A DNA stretch of 22,442 nt from a virus: IMG/VR virus record IMGVR_UViG_3300022074_000410, positions 1 to 22,442 of that record; one strand, given 5' to 3'. The translations under genes and the position numbers were made by a program. Of this stretch, positions 1,158 to 8,401 are shown piece by piece (the stretch's first letter is position 1; each line of letters starts with the position of its first letter). A model generated the notes under the pieces. That model ran no database searches. It saw only the letters and a list, made by a program, of their open reading frames with translations, and was not told the origin of the DNA.

Positions 1158-1631
1158 ATGGCATTAGGTAAACTACTTACAAAGGCTACTAAAGCAGCCC
1201 TAACAAAAGCAGAAAAAGATAAACTTGCTAAAGAAGCTACTAAACAAACAGCACTACGCAAGAATCAGAAGAAGCCAATCAATGAATTGGAAGGCATGAC
1301 TTCTGCAGAAAAGAAAGCTGCAGGTATAGGTGAAGCAAGCCCGGCTCGTGTTATGATGGGCGAGGCTAGTAAGAAACGCACGGGCCTTGTTGCTGATTAC
1401 AAACGTACACTAAAACAAGTTGAGGAAAATAAAAACTTAACTGATGAACAGTTAGAGCGTATGATGACTAAGCTAGATGATATGCGTACTAAACTAAAAG
1501 ATGCTGGTGTAGATGTATCAGAGTTTAGTAAAGGTGGTAAGGCCACTAAGAAACGTATTGGTGCTACAGACTATCGTATGAACAAAGGTGGCTTACTCCT
1601 TTCATCTGTAGATAACAGGAAGAAAAAATAA
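1158..1631 (+). CDS. lysine-rich helical protein with KGG/TDYR C-terminal module
   Basis: This 157-residue protein is rich in lysine and alanine in its first 40 residues and predicted helical or coiled-coil in the middle (about 70-118, with LKQVEENKNLTDEQLERMMT). It ends in a 33-residue tail (125-157) with motifs KGGKATKKR, TDYRMNKGG, SS and terminal KKK. The same tail, ungapped and with 19 of 33 identical residues, ends the protein at 5824-6186. The motif GGKATKK recurs in the next gene. AGGA at 1146-1149 supports the ATG. The stop overlaps the next ATG (TAATG). A modular tail shared by unrelated bodies suggests a targeting or packing signal; the role is unknown. Confidence 0.8.
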   Translation: MALGKLLTKATKAALTKAEKDKLAKEATKQTALRKNQKKPINELEGMTSAEKKAAGIGEASPARVMMGEASKKRTGLVADYKRTLKQVEENKNLTDEQLERMMTKLDDMRTKLKDAGVDVSEFSKGGKATKKRIGATDYRMNKGGLLLSSVDNRKKK

Positions 1632-2026
1632 TGGCTAATGAAAAAGGCATCAAAGCTAATCTGGAAAATATGACAGCAAATAAACTGCTGGATATTACTA
1701 ATGATGATACGCAGCCAGCAAAGCTACGTGCCGCTGCCAAGAAAGAACTGTCTACACGTTCAATGGCTTCAGACACAATGCCCGGCAAGGCACGTACTAA
1801 TTTTAAAGATGGCGGTAAAGCTACAAAGAAAGTGCCTGTCATCTCTATTGGCGTAGGTATGGCTGAAGTTAAAAAAGGCAAAGCTAAGATGGCAAAGGGC
1901 GGCTTGGCAAATGGCAAAATGCATATGTACACAGGCGGTGGTGCTGTAAAAGATAAGATGAATCCCGGCTTGAAAGCACTGCAGAAGGAAGCACCCGAAG
2001 TGGTTGCTAAGATGCTAAAGTCATAA
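1631..2026 (+). CDS. basic KGG-motif protein, function unknown
   Basis: This 131-residue basic protein is translationally coupled to the gene before it (TAATG). The first 50 residues look helical (NMTANKLLDITNDDTQPAKL). The second half carries repeated glycine doublets in basic surroundings: KDGGKATKK, MAKGGLANGK and TGGGAVKDK. GGKATKK is identical to part of the tail of the 1158-1631 protein, so the two neighbours share a module. There is no membrane segment and no cysteine. By composition it belongs with the other KGG/RGG proteins of this window (1158, 2540, 5824). I infer a DNA-associated or virion-associated role but cannot show it. Confidence 0.75.
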   Translation: MANEKGIKANLENMTANKLLDITNDDTQPAKLRAAAKKELSTRSMASDTMPGKARTNFKDGGKATKKVPVISIGVGMAEVKKGKAKMAKGGLANGKMHMYTGGGAVKDKMNPGLKALQKEAPEVVAKMLKS

Positions 2027-2550
2027 TGCATCCTATTGAAGCTGACATTCGCAAGTGGTCTAATGACTTTCTTGAGATACCTAATAAAAAGCTAAATGGC
2101 TTACCACCATGCCCTTATGCAAAGCAAGCATGGTTAGATAAAAAAGTAACCTTTAGCATTAATACTGGTCTAGCTGGGCTGGTCAAGGCTGTTGAAGACT
2201 TTGACCTGCACACATTTGACATAGTAGTATGGGCTACAGAACTACTGCCAGACATGGAATACCTAGATGGTTTTTGTGACGGCATTAACGAGGCATTGTC
2301 GGTAGCCAATAAAGATATGCACCTGATGGTGTTTCATCCAGACTACGATGCAGAAGAAGCAGGTCTGGACTTTTTAGTAGATGATGTTACAGATGATGAT
2401 TTAGTTTACTGCATGGTATTTGTGCAGCGACTATCTACATTAGATGATGCATCATTAAGTTTAGAAAAATCAGGATACTACCAGCACTTTCCTGACGATG
2501 TATATGAATCACTCGTGCTGGACAGACGGAGACTTCGTAATGGCGGGTAA
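2026..2550 (+). CDS. conserved acidic protein with LPPCPYA motif
   Basis: This 174-residue protein is acidic, in sharp contrast to its neighbours. Near the N-terminus it has GLPPCPYAKQAW (about residues 25-36), followed by a mixed alpha/beta body with hydrophobic strands (FDIVVWATELL, MHLMVFHPDY, LVYCMVFVQRL), a cluster of aspartates (VDDVTDDDL) and a C-terminal QHFPDDVYESLVLDRR. I recall the CPYA-type motif in a conserved family shared by phages and bacteria, but no reaction is established. The cysteine after a double proline looks like a functional residue rather than structural. The start overlaps the previous stop (TAATG), and the end overlaps the next gene by 11 bases. Confidence 0.75.
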   Translation: MHPIEADIRKWSNDFLEIPNKKLNGLPPCPYAKQAWLDKKVTFSINTGLAGLVKAVEDFDLHTFDIVVWATELLPDMEYLDGFCDGINEALSVANKDMHLMVFHPDYDAEEAGLDFLVDDVTDDDLVYCMVFVQRLSTLDDASLSLEKSGYYQHFPDDVYESLVLDRRRLRNGG

Positions 2551-2701
2551 AGCAAAAGCAGCAAAGAAGATGATGCGTGGTGGTGTTGCCAAAAAGAAAA
2601 TGCGTGGCGGTGGCATGGCTAAGATGGCGCAAAAGAAAATGATGCGTGGCGGTATGGTCAAGAAAAAAATGATGCGTGGTGGCGCAGTAAAGAAGAAGTA
2701 A
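2540..2701 (+). CDS. 53-residue KMMRGG-repeat protein
   Basis: This very small protein is made almost entirely of lysine, arginine, glycine, methionine and alanine. Four imperfect copies of a unit of the form KKMMRGGxV run through it (variants MMRGGVA, KMRGGGMA, MMRGGMV, MMRGGAV), ending in KKK. I start it at the ATG at 2540, with GGAGA about seven bases upstream, giving MAGKAKAAKK. An in-frame ATG at 2498 would add 14 residues of different composition that read in the preceding gene. It overlaps that gene by 11 bases and its stop overlaps the next ATG. RGG-type repeats often bind nucleic acids; a DNA-condensing or virion-internal role is inference. Confidence 0.75.
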   Translation: MAGKAKAAKKMMRGGVAKKKMRGGGMAKMAQKKMMRGGMVKKKMMRGGAVKKK

Positions 2702-2820
2702 TGACACGTACCTGCATTAAATATATGGGTTGGGCATTGCTCTATATGGGTAAGCCCTTTACCTATATTGGTAACTGGTTCTGGCGTATGCACAGAACTG
2801 TGCTAGATTGGAATGATTGA
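2701..2820 (+). CDS. 39-residue aromatic small protein
   Basis: This short reading frame begins at the ATG overlapping the previous stop (TAATG) and its own stop TGA overlaps the next ATG (TGATG), so both ends show translational coupling. The product is unusually rich in tryptophan, tyrosine and methionine (GWALLYMGKPFTYIGNWFWR), with a hydrophobic middle that could form one short membrane helix or an amphipathic peripheral helix. Without this frame there would be a 118-base gap in a block that otherwise has none. I do not recognise a family. The perfect junctions are the main support. Confidence 0.6.
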   Translation: MTRTCIKYMGWALLYMGKPFTYIGNWFWRMHRTVLDWND

Positions 2821-3179
2821 TGCCTGTACTTTCTTCTGGCTCAAAATTTGTTACACAAGTAGTTGCACTAGGTTCTACTAACAAAACAACTGTGTATACA
2901 GTACCTGCAAATTTTTCTTCTCATTTAGAAAATTTGTTTGTAAGCAATAATCACACAGGTAATGTAACTTTAAGTCTACATTTATTTCATAAAGAAGATA
3001 ATATAGAATATGATTTATTAACCGCTCATAATATTGCAGGTGGTTCTTACGAATCTATATTCACAACAGAAAGACCGTTGTATCTTCATGCAGGTGATAT
3101 TATTAAATGTACAGCAGGTACAGCAAGTAAGTTAGTTGTTACGACAGCTTGTGAAGAATTTTTTGACCCTACTAGGTAA
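2820..3179 (+). CDS. small beta-rich protein, possible virion component
   Basis: This 119-residue beta-rich protein starts at the ATG at 2820, coupled to the previous stop; a TTG one codon upstream is possible but less likely. The pattern of short hydrophobic strands, VYTVPANFSSHLENLFVSN, then VTLSLHLF, an AGGS turn and LHAGDIIKCTAGTASKLVVT, resembles the small protein at 20203-20529 (IPAGSALQVL, ASDVLKVQSDTASSADVWVS). I recall this jelly-roll-like pattern in phage appendage or decoration proteins. Its AT-rich codons differ somewhat from those of the preceding gene. A structural role is inference. Confidence 0.7.
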   Translation: MPVLSSGSKFVTQVVALGSTNKTTVYTVPANFSSHLENLFVSNNHTGNVTLSLHLFHKEDNIEYDLLTAHNIAGGSYESIFTTERPLYLHAGDIIKCTAGTASKLVVTTACEEFFDPTR

Positions 3180-3184
3180 TTAAC

Positions 3185-3391
3185 ATGGCACGTAATGCAC
3201 CAAAGAAACCTAAGAGCAAAGTAAACGAGTCAGGTAATTATACTAAGCCTGAGTTACGTAAGCGTATATTTAACAGAATTAAAGCTGGCAGCAAGGGCGG
3301 TAAGCCGGGTCAATGGTCGGCAAGAAAAGCCCAAATGCTTGCACTTGCTTATAAAAAAGCTGGCGGTGGCTACAAGACAAAGAAGGCATAA
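3185..3391 (+). CDS. small basic protein with KPGQWSARKAQ motif
   Basis: This 68-residue, strongly basic protein carries the motifs NYTKPELRKRIFNRIKAGSK and KPGQWSARKAQMLALAYKKA, then a GGGYK tail. I recognise this as a recurrent short protein in marine phages and some other large DNA viruses, but no function is known. The spacing of arginine/lysine with helical segments suggests DNA binding. The start has only a weak AGG upstream. It sits between the beta-rich protein at 2820 and the membrane protein at 3399 in the P1 unit. Confidence 0.75.
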   Translation: MARNAPKKPKSKVNESGNYTKPELRKRIFNRIKAGSKGGKPGQWSARKAQMLALAYKKAGGGYKTKKA

Positions 3392-3398
3392 ACTATAG

Positions 3399-3803
3399 AT
3401 GCCTACAAAGCTAAGTGAAAACACTGAGGTAGCATTACCTCTACGTAATATTATCAGCATGGTTGCTGCTGCATCACTGGCAACGTGGGCTTACTTTGGC
3501 TTGATTGAGAGGCTGAACACGCTAGAAACAAATCAGACTATGATGAAGTCTGACTTGGAGCAGAACACAGAGTTCCGTATAAAGTGGCCTCGTGGCGAGA
3601 TGGGTAGCTTACCTGCTGACAGCGAACAGTTTATGTTGATTGAACATCTTGCTGACCAGATAGATGAACTAACATCACAGATTGATGAGGGTCGTGCGCC
3701 ACATGACCAGCAACAGAAACTAACATTGGAATTTTATGAGAAACGTATTAGTGCAATAGAAGCTAGACTAGAAATAATGAGAAACGGAAAAGATGGTGAC
3801 TGA
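3399..3803 (+). CDS. single-pass membrane protein with coiled coil
   Basis: This 134-residue protein has one hydrophobic segment near the N-terminus (about residues 16-36, including ISMVAAASLATWAYFG), followed by coiled-coil heptads (LIERLNTLETNQTMMKSDLEQ and, near the end, EKRISAIEARLEIM). The middle has a fixed-looking segment FRIKWPRGEMGSLPADSEQF. N-terminal anchor plus long extracytoplasmic coiled coil is the topology of an inner-membrane spanin, and the holin and lysozyme genes begin about 0.7 kb downstream, but no matching outer-membrane lipoprotein was found. I therefore call it a membrane protein of unknown role. AAGG at 3383 is rather far upstream of the ATG. It overlaps the next gene by 11 bases. 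Confidence 0.75.
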   Translation: MPTKLSENTEVALPLRNIISMVAAASLATWAYFGLIERLNTLETNQTMMKSDLEQNTEFRIKWPRGEMGSLPADSEQFMLIEHLADQIDELTSQIDEGRAPHDQQQKLTLEFYEKRISAIEARLEIMRNGKDGD

Positions 3804-4011
3804 GACAATTACACTAATACTATATCTTTCCGGCAGCGTAGCGGAGCATACTGCTTTTGAAAAGCTGTCCAAGTGTTTAAAAGCTAAACGCACCATAGAA
3901 AGAAACTTGTATAAAGATACAGGTACTGTGCGGTACTCTTGTGAGTCAAAAACAGTTGAAATTAGTAAAGGGCCAGACGGTAAAAATTATATCGTAAAAA
4001 TAGTGGAGTAA
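3793..4011 (+). CDS. small protein with hydrophobic N-terminus and cysteine pair
   Basis: This 72-residue protein begins with a hydrophobic stretch (ITLILYLSGSVAEHT) followed by a basic region KLSKCLKAKRTIERNLYKDTG and a short beta segment with a second cysteine (VRYSCESKTVEI). The two cysteines, about positions 28 and 50, may form a disulfide if the protein is exported. The N-terminus is shorter than a typical signal peptide and lacks a lipobox. GGAAAAG about seven bases upstream supports the ATG at 3793, which overlaps the previous gene. I recall close relatives in marine phages, all unannotated. It could belong with the membrane proteins at 3399 and 4015. Confidence 0.7.
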   Translation: MVTETITLILYLSGSVAEHTAFEKLSKCLKAKRTIERNLYKDTGTVRYSCESKTVEISKGPDGKNYIVKIVE

Positions 4012-4014
4012 GCA

Positions 4015-4458
4015 ATGGTAGACCCCATCACAGCCATTGCCTCTGCAAAGATGGCCTATGAAGCCATTAAAAAAGGTTTGCAGATAGGCAAAGACATAGA
4101 ATCAATGGCTGGCGATTTGGGCCGTTGGATGAACTCAATCCACGATGTCAAGAAAAGCCACGAGAAAGCTAAAGGTCGTAGGTTTGGAAGTGTAGAAGAA
4201 GAAGCACTTGAAACATTTGCAGCTAAAAAGAAAGCAGAGCAAATGGAAGAAGAGTTGCGCAATTTTGTAAACATGACGTATGGACCAAGTGCATGGTCAC
4301 AGATAATAAGAATACAAGGTCAGTTACGTAAACAGAGGCTAGAAGAGGAACGACTACGCAAGCAACAGATGGAAGAAATAATTGTATGGGGCATGATTAT
4401 ATCCTGTATTGTTTTATTCTCTGGTTTGATACTGTGGGTAGCCGTTACAGCTTTTTAA
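4015..4458 (+). CDS. C-terminally anchored helical membrane protein
   Basis: This 147-residue protein is helical and charged for the first 120 residues, with alanine-rich (IASAKMAYEAIKKGLQIGKD) and coiled-coil regions (LRKQRLEEERLRKQQMEE). It ends in one strong transmembrane helix (about 124-146, VWGMIISCIVLFSGLILWVAV). The short motif YGPSAWSQIIRIQGQLR precedes the coiled coil. GGAG at 4006-4009 supports the start. It is the last gene before promoter P2, and its stop lies two bases before the -35 box. A tail-anchored cytoplasmic protein in front of the lysis genes could modulate lysis timing or remodel the membrane; this is speculative. Confidence 0.75.
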   Translation: MVDPITAIASAKMAYEAIKKGLQIGKDIESMAGDLGRWMNSIHDVKKSHEKAKGRRFGSVEEEALETFAAKKKAEQMEEELRNFVNMTYGPSAWSQIIRIQGQLRKQRLEEERLRKQQMEEIIVWGMIISCIVLFSGLILWVAVTAF

Positions 4459-4459
4459 C

Positions 4460-4488
4460 TTGACAAATAAATATAAAGATGGTATAAC
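4460..4488 (+). promoter_or_regulatory. sigma70-type promoter P2
   Basis: TTGACA (4460-4465) and TATAAC (4483-4488) are separated by 17 bases, with GG just before the -10 as in P1. It fills the only gap between 3399 and 6954, directly ahead of the lysis/packaging block. The predicted start, about seven bases after the -10, falls on the ATG at 4495. Confidence 0.85.
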
Positions 4489-4494
4489 TTAAAT

Positions 4495-4743
4495 ATGACA
4501 TTAAAAGGACCACAGAAAAGTCTCAAGGCTTGGACCAAACAAAAGTGGGGTACTAAGAGTGGGAAGCCGTCTGGAAAAACTGGAGAACGGTACTTACCTG
4601 CTGCGGCTATCAAAGCGTTGTCACCGCAGGAGTATGCGGCTACCACCAGTGCTAAACGAAAAGGAACTGCTGCTGGTAAGCAATTCGTCAGACAGCCTAA
4701 AGCGATATCAAAGAAAACCGCTAAATTCAGAAGAGGTGTGTAA
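4495..4743 (+). CDS. small basic conserved phage protein (GERYLP/GKQF type)
   Basis: This 82-residue basic protein has motifs SLKAWTKQKWGTKSGKPS, GERYLPAAAIKALSPQEYAA, AKRKGTAAGKQFV and QPKAISKKTA. I remember the set as a widespread unannotated family in phages and large DNA viruses. There is no Shine-Dalgarno sequence upstream of the ATG, and promoter P2 predicts transcription starting at the ATG itself, so it may be read from a leaderless mRNA. Read-through from the P1 unit could also supply the message. The stop overlaps the next ATG (TAATG). Its abundant lysine, tryptophan and proline suggest nucleic-acid binding; no function is established. Confidence 0.75.
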   Translation: MTLKGPQKSLKAWTKQKWGTKSGKPSGKTGERYLPAAAIKALSPQEYAATTSAKRKGTAAGKQFVRQPKAISKKTAKFRRGV

Positions 4744-5126
4744 TGCTAACCGCACTGATAGGTCCGATAAGTAATATTGCCTCTACATGGTTAGAAGGCA
4801 AAGTAGAAGAGAAGAAAGCCCAATCAGCAAGTAAAGTTGCTAAAGCACAAGCTGAAGCTGTAGTGATGCAGAAGAAAGCTACAGGTGAAATTGATTGGGA
4901 CTTGGAGATGGCTAGAGGTAGTCAGTCTTCGTGGAAAGACGAATGGCTTACTATATTATTTAGCATACCCCTTATACTAGCTTTTATACCCGGAATGGAA
5001 GAGGTGGTTGCAAATGGTTTCGCACAACTCAACTCAATGCCTGAATGGTATCAGTACTCACTTGGAGTTATCGTTGCTGCTTCTTTCGGAGTACGTTCGG
5101 CTACAAAATTCTTTGGTAAAAAATAA
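4743..5126 (+). CDS. holin, GTA-type three-helix family (probable)
   Basis: This 127-residue protein probably forms the pores in the inner membrane that release the lysozyme encoded two genes downstream. Residues 12-62 form a charged amphipathic region (LEGKVEEKKAQSASKV, then GEIDWDLEMARGSQSSWKDEW). Two hydrophobic helices follow, about 68-86 (LTILFSIPLILAFIPGMEEV) and 103-120 (YSLGVIVAASFGVRSATKFF). This arrangement, including the SSWKDEW-to-helix junction and the IPGMEE turn, matches what I remember of the GTA holin 3TM family (Pfam PF11351). The start is coupled to the gene before (TAATG) and the stop to the gene after. Confidence 0.7.
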   Translation: MLTALIGPISNIASTWLEGKVEEKKAQSASKVAKAQAEAVVMQKKATGEIDWDLEMARGSQSSWKDEWLTILFSIPLILAFIPGMEEVVANGFAQLNSMPEWYQYSLGVIVAASFGVRSATKFFGKK

Positions 5127-5335
5127 TGATTGATTGGTGGAAACGATGGCTGCAATTTAATGTTACAGCAAAGCTGACTATGATTGCTTCAGTTGCAATG
5201 TCATGGCGTTGTGCTGAGTGGTTCATGAATTTAGAAGACCCAACAACACAACAGTCTGCATTTGTTTCTGTTATCATGGGTGTTATGACAGGTGTGTATG
5301 GTATCTATCTAGGTAGAGAGTCAAAAGGCAAATAG
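5126..5335 (+). CDS. small two-helix membrane protein, possible second holin or antiholin
   Basis: This 69-residue protein has two hydrophobic segments, about 13-33 (VTAKLTMIASVAMSWRCAEW) and 43-63 (SAFVSVIMGVMTGVYGIYLG), with a short loop NLEDPTTQQ between and a charged end RESKGK. Size, topology and position between a probable holin and the lysozyme are those of a class II-like holin or an antiholin. The start is coupled to the holin gene and the stop abuts the lysozyme ATG at 5336. Membrane location is well supported; the lytic role is inferred from neighbours only. Confidence 0.7.
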   Translation: MIDWWKRWLQFNVTAKLTMIASVAMSWRCAEWFMNLEDPTTQQSAFVSVIMGVMTGVYGIYLGRESKGK

Positions 5336-5824
5336 ATGAAGTATATTCGCACACATTTAATCAAACAACTTGTTCAGAGTGAAGGTCTACGCCTAGAGGT
5401 CTATCAGGATACACTTGGCATCGATACAATAGGCGTTGGCAGAAATCTTGAAGACCGTGGTATTACTCAAGAAGAATTAGATACTATGGACATACCGAAC
5501 ATAGAAACAGTGTATGAGTATGGTATTACCGAAGTTGACGCTGCTTTTCTATTAGAGAATGACGTGCAGATAGTCGAGGAAGAACTGTTACGTGCGCACC
5601 CTTGCGTGGACAGCTTAGACTCTGTACGTCAACTTGTACTTGTGGACATGGCTTTTAATATGGGTGTACCACGGCTATGTAAGTTTAAAAAGATGTGGGC
5701 TGCTATACACGAAGAAGATTTTCGTACTGCAGCAAAAGAAATGCTTGACAGCAGGTGGGCAGTTCAGGTAAAATCACGTAGCCATAAATTAGCACATGCT
5801 ATGCATCATGGAGAATTAAAGTAA
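5336..5824 (+). CDS. endolysin, T4-type lysozyme (GH24)
   Basis: This 162-residue enzyme hydrolyses the beta-1,4 bond between N-acetylmuramic acid and N-acetylglucosamine in peptidoglycan, ending infection. The catalytic triad of T4 lysozyme is present with identical spacing: Glu16 in SEGLRLEVY, Asp25 in QDT and Thr31 in DTIGVGRNL. The C-terminal half has the family pattern SVRQLVLVDMAFNMG and SRWAVQVKSRSHKLA. A longer acidic loop (GITQEELDTMDIPNIETVYE) replaces the short T4 lobe hinge. No signal peptide or SAR helix is visible, so it should stay cytoplasmic until the upstream holins open the membrane. The length equals that of the T4 enzyme (164). Confidence 0.92.
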   Translation: MKYIRTHLIKQLVQSEGLRLEVYQDTLGIDTIGVGRNLEDRGITQEELDTMDIPNIETVYEYGITEVDAAFLLENDVQIVEEELLRAHPCVDSLDSVRQLVLVDMAFNMGVPRLCKFKKMWAAIHEEDFRTAAKEMLDSRWAVQVKSRSHKLAHAMHHGELK

Positions 5825-6186
5825 TGGCAAATGAGTTTATTGAAAGAGGTAAGGACGGAGTTCCTAGATTGTACAGGGGAACAAAGGGTGGAAGTAAGCA
5901 GCTTTTAGGACCAGCATCTAAATCTGATATAAAAAGATTGGGTATATCAGGCGATGGGATATTTGGAACAGCGAAAAAGGCCATATCAGGTTTGTTTTCA
6001 GATGACGATGACAAAAAGAAAAAACCTAAAGCTAAATCTATTTCTGAAGGGTTAGGTTCTTTTATGGCAAGTCTTTCACAAAACAAAGGTGGCTATATTA
6101 GTAAGCCACGTACAGGCCACACAGACTATCGTTTTAACAAAGGTGGCATGGTTATGTCATCTACAAATAAAATGAAAAAGAAATAA
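5824..6186 (+). CDS. KGG/TDYR-tailed small protein between lysin and terminase
   Basis: This 120-residue protein has a basic N-terminal half with turn-forming segments (GKDGVPRLYRGTKGGSKQLL), an acidic-basic switch DDDDKKKKPKAK at about 59-70, and a C-terminal 33-residue tail (88-120) with KGG, TDYRFNKGG, SS and a terminal KKK. The tail aligns without gaps to the tail of the 1158-1631 protein at 19 of 33 positions, while the bodies are unrelated. Both junctions are TAATG couplings. Position next to the terminase genes suggests a packaging- or virion-linked role, but none is known. Confidence 0.75.
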   Translation: MANEFIERGKDGVPRLYRGTKGGSKQLLGPASKSDIKRLGISGDGIFGTAKKAISGLFSDDDDKKKKPKAKSISEGLGSFMASLSQNKGGYISKPRTGHTDYRFNKGGMVMSSTNKMKKK

Positions 6187-6560
6187 TGGCTAGAGAACTA
6201 AACGAAAGGCAACAGAAGTTTCTTGAAGTCCTCTTTGAGGATGCTGGCGGTGACGTAGTTGCCGCTAAGAAACTGGCTGGCTATTCAGAGTCTACTGCTA
6301 CAACTGCAATTGTAAAAGGTCTCAAGGAAGAGATACTTGAAGCAACGCAGATGTACATGGCACGTAATGCACCTAAAGCTGCTATGGCTATGACCCACGC
6401 TTTGTATGACCCAACTGAATTAGGTATTCGTGATAAAATGTCAGCAGCTAAAGAACTGCTTGACCGCACAGGTTTGATTAAAACAGAGAAGGTGCAAGTA
6501 GAAGCATCTGGTGGTGTGATGCTTATGCCAGCTAAAGCTACAGTAGAAGACGATGACTAG
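6186..6560 (+). CDS. terminase small subunit (probable)
   Basis: This 124-residue protein should recognise the packaging site and hand viral DNA to the large terminase. Residues 5-45 form a helix-turn-helix-like region (LNERQQKFLEVLF, then AAKKLAGYSESTA), the form seen in many phage small terminases. A helical oligomerisation segment follows (about 47-95, including GIRDKMSAAKELLDRTGLIK), and the C-terminal end is acidic (VEDDD). It lies one gene upstream of the large terminase, overlaps the next gene by 8 bases, and starts on a TAATG coupling. Identification rests on size, fold pattern and position, not on a diagnostic motif. Confidence 0.75.
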   Translation: MARELNERQQKFLEVLFEDAGGDVVAAKKLAGYSESTATTAIVKGLKEEILEATQMYMARNAPKAAMAMTHALYDPTELGIRDKMSAAKELLDRTGLIKTEKVQVEASGGVMLMPAKATVEDDD

Positions 6561-6954
6561 AAGCGCAGGGCAGTGGAAGCTACCACAGCCAACAGATATT
6601 AAAGAAGAAAACGAATGGGTACAGATACCACGCATTGCACGTACTGTACCTTTCGGCTACAAGCGAAACGAAGAAGACCCCGACATTCTTGACCCCATTC
6701 CAACTGAGTTGGATTTGCTTGAAAAGGCCAGAACACACGTAAATCAATACAGCTATCGTGAGGTAGCTAACTGGCTTAGTACAAATAGTGGTAGATACAT
6801 ATCACACGTAGGATTAAGAAAGCGGTTACAGCATGAGCGACAGCGTAAGAACACAGCTAAAAGCCTCCGCAAGTGGGCAGAGTATGCGGAAAAGGCAATC
6901 GCCAAAGCGCAAGAAATCGAAGAAGCAAGAACAGGCGCAAAAGCCAACGGTTGA
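6553..6954 (+). CDS. recombinase-linker-like DNA-binding protein beside terminase
   Basis: This 133-residue basic protein has VPFGYKRNEEDPDILDP at 32-48, then QYSYREVANWLSTNSGR at 65-81 and ISHVGLRKRL at 83-92. That order, a PxGY box, a helix, a 'SYREVANWL' helix-turn-helix and a TVxxIL-like recognition helix, is the pattern of the 'recombinase' DNA-binding region of large serine recombinases, here without any catalytic domain. A lysine/alanine-rich helix ends the protein. Residues 94-133 are encoded in DNA that also encodes the start of the large terminase in the +1 frame. A role in recognising the packaging site is inference. It could also be an accessory small-terminase-like subunit. Confidence 0.75.
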   Translation: MTRSAGQWKLPQPTDIKEENEWVQIPRIARTVPFGYKRNEEDPDILDPIPTELDLLEKARTHVNQYSYREVANWLSTNSGRYISHVGLRKRLQHERQRKNTAKSLRKWAEYAEKAIAKAQEIEEARTGAKANG

Positions 6955-8401
6955 AATACAAGAGGTACAGACTGAAGCTGCTGAGTTTGAAACTATTGAA
7001 GAGACAGCCAATGTACTTTTTAAACCTAATCCCGGTCCACAGACTGACTTTCTTGCAGCAAGTGAACGTGAAGTATTATACGGTGGTTCAGCAGGGGGTG
7101 GTAAATCTTATGCCATGCTTGCCGACCCTTTAAGGTATATGGGGCATCCGCAGTTTAGTGGGCTGTTGCTTCGACACACTACGGAAGAGTTACGTGAACT
7201 AATATTTAAATCACAAGAACTCTATCCAAAAATCTGGCCCGGAATAAAGTGGTCAGAAAGAAAGATGCAGTGGACTGCGCCATCTGGTGCGAGGTTGTGG
7301 ATGTCATACCTCGACAGAGATGAAGATGTCCTGCGTTATCAGGGTCTGGCTTTTAGCTGGATAGGCTTTGACGAACTGACCCAGTGGCAATCGCCATATG
7401 CATGGAATTACATGCGAAGTCGTCTACGGTCCACTGCCCCTGACTTGCCCATCTTTATGAGGGCTACAACAAACCCCGGTGGAAGAGGGCATCACTGGGT
7501 AAAGAAAATGTTTATTGACCCTGCCCCATATAATAAGGCGTATGATGCGACAGATAGTGAAACGGGTGAAGTTCTTCGATATCCAGCAGGTCACAGCAAA
7601 GCTGGGAAACCATTATTTAAACGTAGGTTCATTCCTGCTAGATTATCTGACAACCCGTATCTCTCTGAGTCAGGTGACTACGAAGCTATGCTCTTGTCGC
7701 TCCCAGAGCAGCAAAGAAGACAACTCCTCGAAGGTGATTGGGATATTAAAGAAGGTGCTGCGTTCACAGAGTTTGACCGTAATATTCATGTTGTTGAACC
7801 TTTTAATATTCCTAGCAATTGGGTTAAGTTTAGAGCATGTGATTACGGGTATGGTTCTTACAGCGGTGTTATTTGGTTCGCTGTCGCACCGTCTGAGCAA
7901 CTCATTGTGTACAGGGAATTGTATGTGTCAAAAGTCCTAGCTACGGACTTAGCTGACATGGTATTAGAATTGGAAGCCGAAGATGGAAATATTAAATATG
8001 GTGTCTTGGATAGTAGTCTTTGGCATAAGCGTGGCGATACTGGACCATCTCTTGCGGAACAAATGATACAAAGAGGCTGTCGTTGGAGACCATCTGACAG
8101 AAGCCGTGGTAGTCGTGTAGCAGGTAAGAACGAAGTACACAGACGTTTACAGGTAGATGAATTTACGGAAGAGCCTAGACTTGTTTTCTTTAATAGTTGC
8201 ACGAACACTGTCGCCCAGTTACCATCCATCCCACTGGATAAAAAAAATCCAGAAGATGTGGATACGAAAGCGGAAGACCACTTGTACGATGCGCTAAGAT
8301 ATGGTATAATGTCACGACCAAGATTTAGTATATTTGATTATGACCCAATGGGTAGACCCGGTGGCGGTATGCAAGTTGCAGATGCTACCTTTGGATACTA
8401 A
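6833..8401 (+). CDS. terL: terminase large subunit
   Basis: This 522-residue ATPase-nuclease packages DNA into the prohead through the portal and cuts the concatemer. Walker A is GGSAGGGKS at 84-92 (Lys91), Walker B WIGFDE at 176-181 (Asp180, Glu181), and the coupling motif ATTNPGG at 211-217. The nuclease domain has acidic residues in ACDYGYG (Asp337), YGVLDSS (Asp393) and AEDHLYDALRYG (Asp482, Asp486). The first 60 residues are low-complexity and basic, then acidic. Starts are possible at 6833 (Met1) or 6884 (Met18), neither with a good Shine-Dalgarno; all options overlap the upstream gene by at least 71 bases. The next ATG lies after Walker A and is excluded. Confidence 0.95.
   Translation: MSDSVRTQLKASASGQSMRKRQSPKRKKSKKQEQAQKPTVEIQEVQTEAAEFETIEETANVLFKPNPGPQTDFLAASEREVLYGGSAGGGKSYAMLADPLRYMGHPQFSGLLLRHTTEELRELIFKSQELYPKIWPGIKWSERKMQWTAPSGARLWMSYLDRDEDVLRYQGLAFSWIGFDELTQWQSPYAWNYMRSRLRSTAPDLPIFMRATTNPGGRGHHWVKKMFIDPAPYNKAYDATDSETGEVLRYPAGHSKAGKPLFKRRFIPARLSDNPYLSESGDYEAMLLSLPEQQRRQLLEGDWDIKEGAAFTEFDRNIHVVEPFNIPSNWVKFRACDYGYGSYSGVIWFAVAPSEQLIVYRELYVSKVLATDLADMVLELEAEDGNIKYGVLDSSLWHKRGDTGPSLAEQMIQRGCRWRPSDRSRGSRVAGKNEVHRRLQVDEFTEEPRLVFFNSCTNTVAQLPSIPLDKKNPEDVDTKAEDHLYDALRYGIMSRPRFSIFDYDPMGRPGGGMQVADATFGY

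Follow-up and report, generated by a model that had tools for sequence, protein, structure and literature searches.

Phage T4 internal proteins are processed by the prohead protease, and their signal is removed. They form a highly diverse set in which only the capsid targeting sequence (CTS) is conserved, according to the part of PMC3012670 devoted to them, where IPI is described as 'proteolyzed'; the corresponding passage of PMC12373910 gives the same precedent of diverse internal proteins with a common capsid targeting sequence. As for phage P1, the first 30 residues of DarB suffice to bring a reporter into the phage head, and no consensus is reported among the Dar proteins (PMC9024508). Encapsulin cargo-loading peptides are short and C-terminal, and bring varied cargo into the shell, although some cargo has the motif at the N-terminus; the excerpt concerned gives the consensus of the Family 1 targeting peptide as SDGSLGIGSLKRS (PMC8346489).

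One feature of HMO-2011-type phages is a DNA polymerase that includes part of a DnaJ domain. The group is described as dominant in the sea and widely spread there, and a putative function is given for only 254 of its 1235 orthologous protein groups (PMC9038755, in part). The window, that is, the whole stretch of DNA analysed here, is a 22,442-base fragment of a podovirus genome of this type: its terminase large subunit (TerL) is 87.7% identical over the full length to that of HMO-2011. In HMO-2011 itself, the annotation of the capsid gene names a P22-type coat protein.

The tail shared by two window proteins

Table 1. Positions of the tail-bearing genes and of their neighbours in the window.
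Feature	Positions	Strand	Remarks
Protein A, ORF	1158-1631	+	
Protein A, body (slot A)	1158-1529	+	124 residues; whole-protein pI 10.0
Protein A, tail I	1530-1628	+	33 residues, runs to the stop codon
Tail A, core TDYRMNKGG	1566-1592	+	
Gene at 1631, GGKATKK stretch	1811-1831	+	followed by the core VPVISIGVGMAE
Phage lysozyme	5336-5824	+	upstream border of slot B; Pfam PF00959, E 5.8e-12
Protein B, ORF	5824-6186	+	
Protein B, body (slot B)	5824-6084	+	between lysozyme and TerS
Protein B, tail I	6085-6183	+	33 residues, runs to the stop codon
Tail B, core TDYRFNKGG	6121-6147	+	
Terminase small subunit (TerS)	6186-6560	+	between slots B and B'; phrog_2538, E 5.5e-8
Terminase large subunit (TerL)	6833-8401	+	marks the phage as HMO-2011-type

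The C-terminal ends of proteins A and B align without a gap over 33 residues, 19 of which are identical, as an earlier note on this DNA had described, and both end exactly at their stop codons. The best ungapped segment between the two proteins has a score of 102; in 500 partner shuffles the mean was 31.0 and the maximum 49, and 100,000 shuffles of the anchored tails gave at most 12 identities. The bodies were said to be unrelated, and indeed their best segment scores 28, a value equalled in 40% of 500 shuffles, so that no relation between them is detectable; alignment along the full length rules out that A and B are simple paralogues, the likeness being confined to the tail. The two genes had also been placed in different modules, which does not hold, since both belong to one co-directional block upstream of TerL.

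The gene at 1631 had been put forward as a third carrier of part of the tail. It has GGKATKK alone in common with tail A, and as a specific piece of the tail the match is weak: its segment score with A is 42, reached in 9% of shuffles, and the comparison with B gave nothing notable, the score being reached in 55% of shuffles. In the family of this gene (32 ORFs), the GG..KK stretch is internal and lies ahead of a different conserved core, which is 32-62 residues from the end in 31 of the 32.

Regarding databases, protein A has only weak matches, namely phrog_10171 with E 0.0024 and some in Pfam and NCBIfam that stay below the cut-off, and protein B has no match in PHROGs or Pfam. In the model of protein B, confidence is limited to about residues 1-40, a predicted small beta domain, and the comparison of its fold with a viral library yielded 382 matches up to E 10, none significant (best 0.16). 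When the tail is modelled by itself, the result contains neither a helix of 4 residues nor a strand of 3, and its mean pLDDT is 61.7, a weak indication of disorder.

Position of the tail and diversity of its bodies

Tail I, with the core GxxDYR(xN)KGGM, occurs on dozens of unrelated small bodies in related viral contigs, the loci being taken from among the matches listed in each tail scan (80 or 120 per scan). The block is nearly always C-terminal, as the earlier note had anticipated, and the exceptions are few. Among the matches listed, a position-blind DNA pattern gave 107 closed frames, in 100 of which the motif falls within the final 19 residues, against 19% expected; this set comprises the loci new in one tail scan and four of its listed ones, and it keeps two ORFs with DYRKGGMGIPAP that were judged to be chance and left out of the clustering. 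In loci picked by TerL and not by the tail, 32/32 tail ORFs of at least 21 bits were C-terminal, and over all loci the same was true for 223/223 ORFs of at least 39 bits (131 distinct proteins), with a profile itself built from C-terminal tails. The exceptions consist of N-terminal copies, two clear (loci L136 and L164) and several weaker, and of one internal copy (L155). A second sequence, tail II (GGxxTKxYVNPVxIVDNRKKK), is like tail I in position and modularity.

None of the families matched in Pfam, PHROG, NCBIfam or PADLOC describes the tail. The C-terminus of Roseobacter phage CRP-345 gp79 (UAW59165.1) ends in GGAVRTGHTDYRSRGLFYK, which matches the tail profile weakly. Profile A4 (52 of 68 relative tails and the two window tails) matched 0/16 related phage records, and a tblastn search of isolated phages, for which A, B and two tails served as queries, gave no match, although its low-complexity filter may hide such tails; 17 pattern matches in bacterial and archaeal genomes were found, none of them confirmed.

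As for the bodies, 153 of 156 tail-I proteins were grouped into 39 clusters; here, three tail proteins with bodies of fewer than 25 residues are excluded and, as in another set of 25, ORFs whose first start enters the upstream gene are left untrimmed. When tails I and II were taken together, with ORFs running into the upstream gene trimmed and one protein with so short a body excluded, 233 proteins gave 66 clusters (E<1e-3) or 79 (E<1e-5) by single linkage, the largest holding 47 proteins at E<1e-3. These dozens of clusters rule out that the tail is restricted to one full-length family, and the idea of a mobile tail on different bodies was borne out also by related bodies that have the other tail or none. 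Clusters holding both tails number 8 (E<1e-3) or 7 (E<1e-5), including the family of protein A, whose relatives have tail I in L019 and L035, and tail II in L333, L340 and L344; the body of the last matches that of A with E 6e-16 (41% over 86 aa). An HMO-2011 protein (L061:2642-3679), 57% identical over 244 residues to a tail-I protein (L012:4-1020), is tailless and ends where the tail of the latter would begin. Matches that are Lys-rich and single-linked may underlie some of the two-tail clusters.

The bodies have a median pI of 10.0, above 9 in 86/98; the untagged neighbours at 843, 1631, 2498, 3185 and 4495 have pI values of 10.1 to 12.0, so a basic pI is not special to the tagged proteins. 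In a comparison of 101 members with known families, matches at E<=0.01 comprised LysM in 2, Tat in 1 and endolysin/transglycosylase PHROGs in one or two (best E 4.6e-9, probably the LysM part), and other families were scattered, with one or two members each. Set A2 comprises both window proteins, CRP-345 gp79 and 98 of the 99 representatives, L166 being excluded for an unknown residue, and set A5 comprises window B, 13 of its 15 relatives listed, L205 and L230. LysM is above the Pfam cut-off in L221, L121 and L153 and just below it in L026; Tat signals are found in L184, which has tail I, and in L205, which has a variant of tail II, both in one body cluster. Together with the lysozyme gene adjoining slot B, these matches would suit a tag directed to the cell envelope or to a lysis complex, for late action on peptidoglycan or the inner membrane, or for exclusion of other phages. 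Such a destination is unlikely, because LysM and Tat are confined to a handful of bodies, basic bodies without such segments being the rule, and because a hydropathy scan detected a membrane-like segment in only 1 of 165 complete tail proteins. This sole segment is an N-terminal stretch, possibly added by the ORF-start rule.

Gene slots, turnover and codon use

A TerS homologue is present in 190 of the 219 loci with tail-I genes; the 219 loci overlap, some being the same contig twice, and the long contigs were mostly chosen for having a tail hit. In 28 of the 219, for some of them because they are short pieces, neither structural nor packaging genes homologous to those of the window are seen. 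The slots flank TerS on both sides and the tail is rich in Lys and Gly, under bodies that are basic; hence, the tail might bind nucleic acid directly, or TerS, and gather small proteins on DNA that is being replicated or packaged, the proteins themselves staying unpackaged. This is decidedly unlikely, given that the most conserved residues of the tail include Asp and Gly besides Lys and Arg, that tail II has a YVNPV core, and that slot A is ∼4.5 kb from TerS in the window.

On the TerL tree (61 loci), the distribution of tail I needs 16 changes, against a shuffled mean of 16.3: the turnover of tail genes is random with respect to this tree. Neither tail lies around TerS in 36/61 loci, and no tail-I gene was found in 47/78 TerL-chosen loci, 17/78 having 700 bases or fewer before TerS, with slot A often out of reach; the tag is dispensable for the HMO-2011-type group. 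Tails I and II are found together in 26 loci; it would therefore be too simple to take them for alleles that a single variable site reads.

The proteins of slots B and B' (n=73) form 16 clusters, compared with a single one for TerS (n=74). Anti-host genes would typically be expected in hypervariable accessory slots, and this diversity could thus reflect a tag whose binding partner is a host protein, such as a protease or hub, with the bodies acting as varied inhibitors. We regard this as improbable: the tail-bearing phages span 31 to 47% GC, a range that suggests, from GC only, several host groups, and PADLOC returned four families with one member each (best E 0.0026).

Finally, the shared 3' ends could be a matter of DNA or RNA, either as a recombination site or as the ribosome-binding region of the next gene. 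Near the gene end, the first ATG shares bases with the stop codon in 71/96 representative genes (positions -1 and -4), and codon choice is narrower than expected at the Arg of DYR and at the first Gly of KGG, which would agree with such an origin; however, there is no loss of synonymous diversity at 9 of the 11 informative core columns (67 of 99 representatives), the terminal DNR Arg has AGR codons in 26/56, close to the 48% of the bodies, and N-terminal copies of the tail exist. The codon test largely refutes a purely DNA-level or ribosome-binding origin, to which we give very little credence, and codon use points to selection on the tail as a protein. A recombination role may be present on top of the protein role.

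A candidate address tag and its counterparts

The tag has a terminal position, is modular and can be swapped, and selection acts on it as a protein; its 33 residues are probably disordered. The reading we favour, with slightly less than even confidence, is that they constitute an interchangeable terminal address tag for one conserved viral partner, with the procapsid interior as destination. HMO-2011-type phages would put either tail I or another similarly organised tag, of which there is at least one, on small proteins, mostly basic and fast-exchanging, with genes in a few fixed slots of the lysozyme/terminase block; the conserved partner would bind the core GxxDYR(xN)KGGM, so that any tagged body would reach the same place. 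We infer a single partner, a conserved viral component, because the tagged genes come and go regardless of the phage tree.

As for the destination, the virion interior is the best guess by analogy with T4 internal proteins, and the cargo would be packaged or injected with the DNA, as these are via the CTS. The few envelope-like bodies (LysM, Tat) and the lysozyme gene next to slot B are a counterpoint. In the literature, virion proteomics or localisation was not found for any tagged protein; the parts available of PMC9038755 and PMC10386132 do not settle HMO-2011 virion proteomics, a search with four tail strings returned one paper, unrelated, and another for a C-terminal capsid tag returned none.

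An address tag of this kind would bring many unknown small proteins together as one defined set, bound for a common destination, and would allow possible virion or injected proteins of hard-to-grow phages to be traced by sequence; its possible use is as a C-terminal loading tag for phage capsids. A broader proposal, conceivable although doubtful, is plug-in delivery, where at least two swappable terminal tags (I, II, perhaps III, TSFLPH) would be read by conserved virion docking sites, and new small genes would become injected effectors by gaining a 20-35 residue tail. If true, a dominant ocean phage group would have a C-terminal counterpart of the T4 CTS with several tags, and these tags would be the key to finding injected anti-defence proteins from sequence alone.

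Compared with T4 IPI, IPII and IPIII, the tail proteins are likewise diverse accessory proteins, from more than one locus, whose bodies share only one short conserved terminal signal. However, the CTS is N-terminal, whereas the tail is C-terminal (100/107 and 32/32) with rare N-terminal copies; at least two tags occur here on related bodies; and packaging and injection, shown for T4, are a proposal for the tail proteins. P1 DarB differs in having an N-terminal signal without consensus, whereas here a consensus is common to dozens of bodies. Regarding encapsulins, their cargo consists of enzymes and the like, and neither tail I nor tail II conforms to SDGSLGIGSLKRS when compared by eye; the tail is nonetheless, as in Family 1, a short C-terminal peptide on varied proteins, and it shares with encapsulin cargo the occasional N-terminal copies.

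Position and conservation of the tail

Proteins A and B of the window end, as had been proposed, in a shared 33-residue block with 19 identities and no gap (tail I, core GxxDYR(xN)KGGM), closed in both by the stop codon; its best ungapped segment scored 102 (mean 31.0 and maximum 49 in 500 shuffles), and 100,000 shuffles anchored at both ends gave at most 12 identities. The upstream bodies are no more alike than shuffled sequences, 40% of which equal their best score, and the DNA of the two genes is identical at 69 of 99 tail positions and at 6-12 of 30 per block in the 300 bases upstream. As for the gene at 1631, credited in the earlier note with part of the tail, only the stretch GGKATKK is in common, with a score equalled in 9% of shuffles.

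Relatives were found in 23 loci with query P0002 and in 6 with P0001, while a profile from 14 tails gave 118, the best 80 of which were retained. The DNA pattern for TDYRxNKGG matched 40 stretches, and all 23 distinct proteins end exactly 12 residues past the motif. A position-blind pattern for DYRKGGM had at least 120 matches; among those listed, 107 distinct closed frames held the motif, which lay within 19 residues of the end in 100 (19% expected from random placement), near the start in 4 and elsewhere in 3. Of the near-start frames, those in L136 and L164 (L numbers being loci of other viruses) appear to be genuine N-terminal copies; the remaining pair, two near-end frames (L175, L236) and two of those elsewhere look like chance. 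The third of the latter, in L155, has the tail-I core and then, at its very end, the VPVISIGIGMAE core, which is internal in the family of window gene 1631.

With a profile of 146 tails, all 223 ORFs of at least 39 bits (131 distinct proteins) among 36,372 ORFs in 321 loci matched C-terminally, a result that leans this way because the source tails were C-terminal; between 21 and 39 bits, nine matches were not C-terminal, five of them merely having a longer MFYVGGTSAKVTPINKGKK-type end. In loci chosen through TerL, the terminase large subunit, the position was C-terminal in 32 of 32 ORFs of at least 21 bits, 23 of them from loci first obtained by the TerL scan.

Codon variety in the core equals that of the bodies at 9 of 11 informative columns, being reduced at the DYR arginine and at the leading glycine of KGG (the Met column is uninformative), and the terminal DNR has no AGR preference; thus, the tail is maintained mainly as protein.

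Bodies and alternative endings

The block sits on varied bodies, as anticipated: 153 of 156 tail-I proteins spread over 39 body clusters. Some slot genes lacking tail I end instead in tail II, GGxxTKxYVNPVxIVDNRKKK. A scan from ten such tails found 83 relatives, the best 80 of which were retained; NPV lies 7-12 residues before the end in 50 distinct proteins (25 body clusters), and 39 residues before it in one further ORF. With tail II added and ORFs that run into the upstream gene trimmed, 233 proteins formed 66 clusters at E<1e-3 (tail I in 47, tail II in 27) or 79 at E<1e-5; eight and seven clusters, respectively, held both tails, and one or two of the seven may be based on Lys-rich matches. 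The best supported are the families of window protein A (L060 with tail I and L344 with tail II, E 6e-16), MALMDSEE (L092, L269, E 5e-21), L128/L351 (60% over 55) and L084/L331 (60% over 102). Some top pairs were artefacts of ORFs extended upstream and were left out of the count. Both tails occur in one locus in 26 of 318 loci with any of three endings; the third, TSFLPH/TSFLKH/TTFLPH, closes seven convincing small ORFs, with DNRK or DNKK next in five.

The slot-A protein of Puniceispirillum phage HMO-2011 shares 57% identity with a tail-I protein of L012 across 244 residues and 47% with one of L025 across 231, and it ends at GGMVKKRKK, immediately before where the tail would be. By eye, the tail-less slot B proteins of L252, L264, L266 and L271 start much alike; judging from sequence, they may have an N-terminal beta domain in common with window protein B and different endings, e.g., QSPGFLDMVV.

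The pI exceeds 9 in 86 of 98 representative bodies and in several untagged neighbour proteins of the window. LysM and Tat matches occur in some tagged proteins; the two Tat proteins belong to one body cluster, one with tail I and the other with a tail II variant. A 53-residue window ORF consists largely of four RGG units with Lys-rich spacers, resembling a multivalent KGGM motif.

Coordinates of tails and ORFs
Location	Feature
window 1530-1628	tail I of protein A
window 6085-6183	tail I of protein B
window 2540-2701	RGG ORF
L155:6737-7576	two cores, 279 residues
L312:1372-2091	CRP-345 gp79
L221:1344-1832	tail I, LysM above Pfam cut-off
L121:3491-3982	tail I, LysM above Pfam cut-off
L153:3619-4140	tail I, LysM above Pfam cut-off
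L026:15245-15754	tail I, LysM just under cut-off
L184:1238-1987	Tat signal (PF10518) above cut-off
L205:3571-4272	Tat signal (PF10518) above cut-off
L011:1442-1609	third ending
L025:7400-7567	third ending
L138:4940-5113	third ending
L230:2569-2751	third ending
L072:8993-9157	third ending
L072:9930-10106	third ending
L268:9178-9354	third ending

Host viruses and turnover

The window is a virus record of 22,442 bases. Its TerL is 87.7% identical, over its full length, to that of HMO-2011; the TerL proteins of 11 Roseobacter CRP phages match it with 63-90% identity across 89% of the query. Profile A4 (52 of 68 relative tails plus the two window tails) had no match at E ≤ 1 in 16 records, one an uncultured assembly; profile A1 matched one of five named records, gp79 of the cultured Roseobacter phage CRP-345 (E 0.007; 12.3 bits with the tail profile), which ends GGAVRTGHTDYRSRGLFYK, probably carries a tail-I variant, and is the best handle for bench work. 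Tail II had one partial match in named records, in CRP-3 (E 0.009).

A homologue of the terminase small subunit (TerS) is present in 190, and one of TerL in 154, of the 219 loci that carry tail-I genes. The common sites are slot A, flanked by homologues of the genes at 843 and 1631; slot B, between lysozyme and TerS; and slot B', between TerS and the gene at 6553. In a sample chosen by TerL only, the best 80 of at least 597 relatives and hence close ones, a tail-I gene was present in 31 of the 78 loci that have both TerS and TerL, and 73 slot B and B' proteins fell into 16 clusters, against one for 74 TerS. On a quick TerL tree of 61 loci with visible slots (19 tail I, 6 tail II, 36 neither), tail I needed 16 changes (shuffled mean 16.3) and tail II 6 (5.8), with no trace of co-inheritance with TerL. 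Ten long viral contigs of 49-60 kb, mostly chosen for a match, had one A1 match each in seven and none in three.

Possible destination of the tagged proteins

That small proteins with a fast turnover carry a swappable, terminal tag maintained at the protein level suggests a common destination. Because gain and loss of the tagged genes do not follow TerL, the partner of the tag is likely a conserved component of the virus. By analogy, the tag could direct proteins to the virion; the LysM and Tat bodies among the tagged proteins and the neighbouring lysozyme gene count against this destination. The closest model is the T4 internal proteins, which, according to PMC3012670 and PMC12373910, share only a terminal capsid targeting sequence; further models are P1 DarB and encapsulin cargo (PMC9024508 and PMC8346489, respectively).
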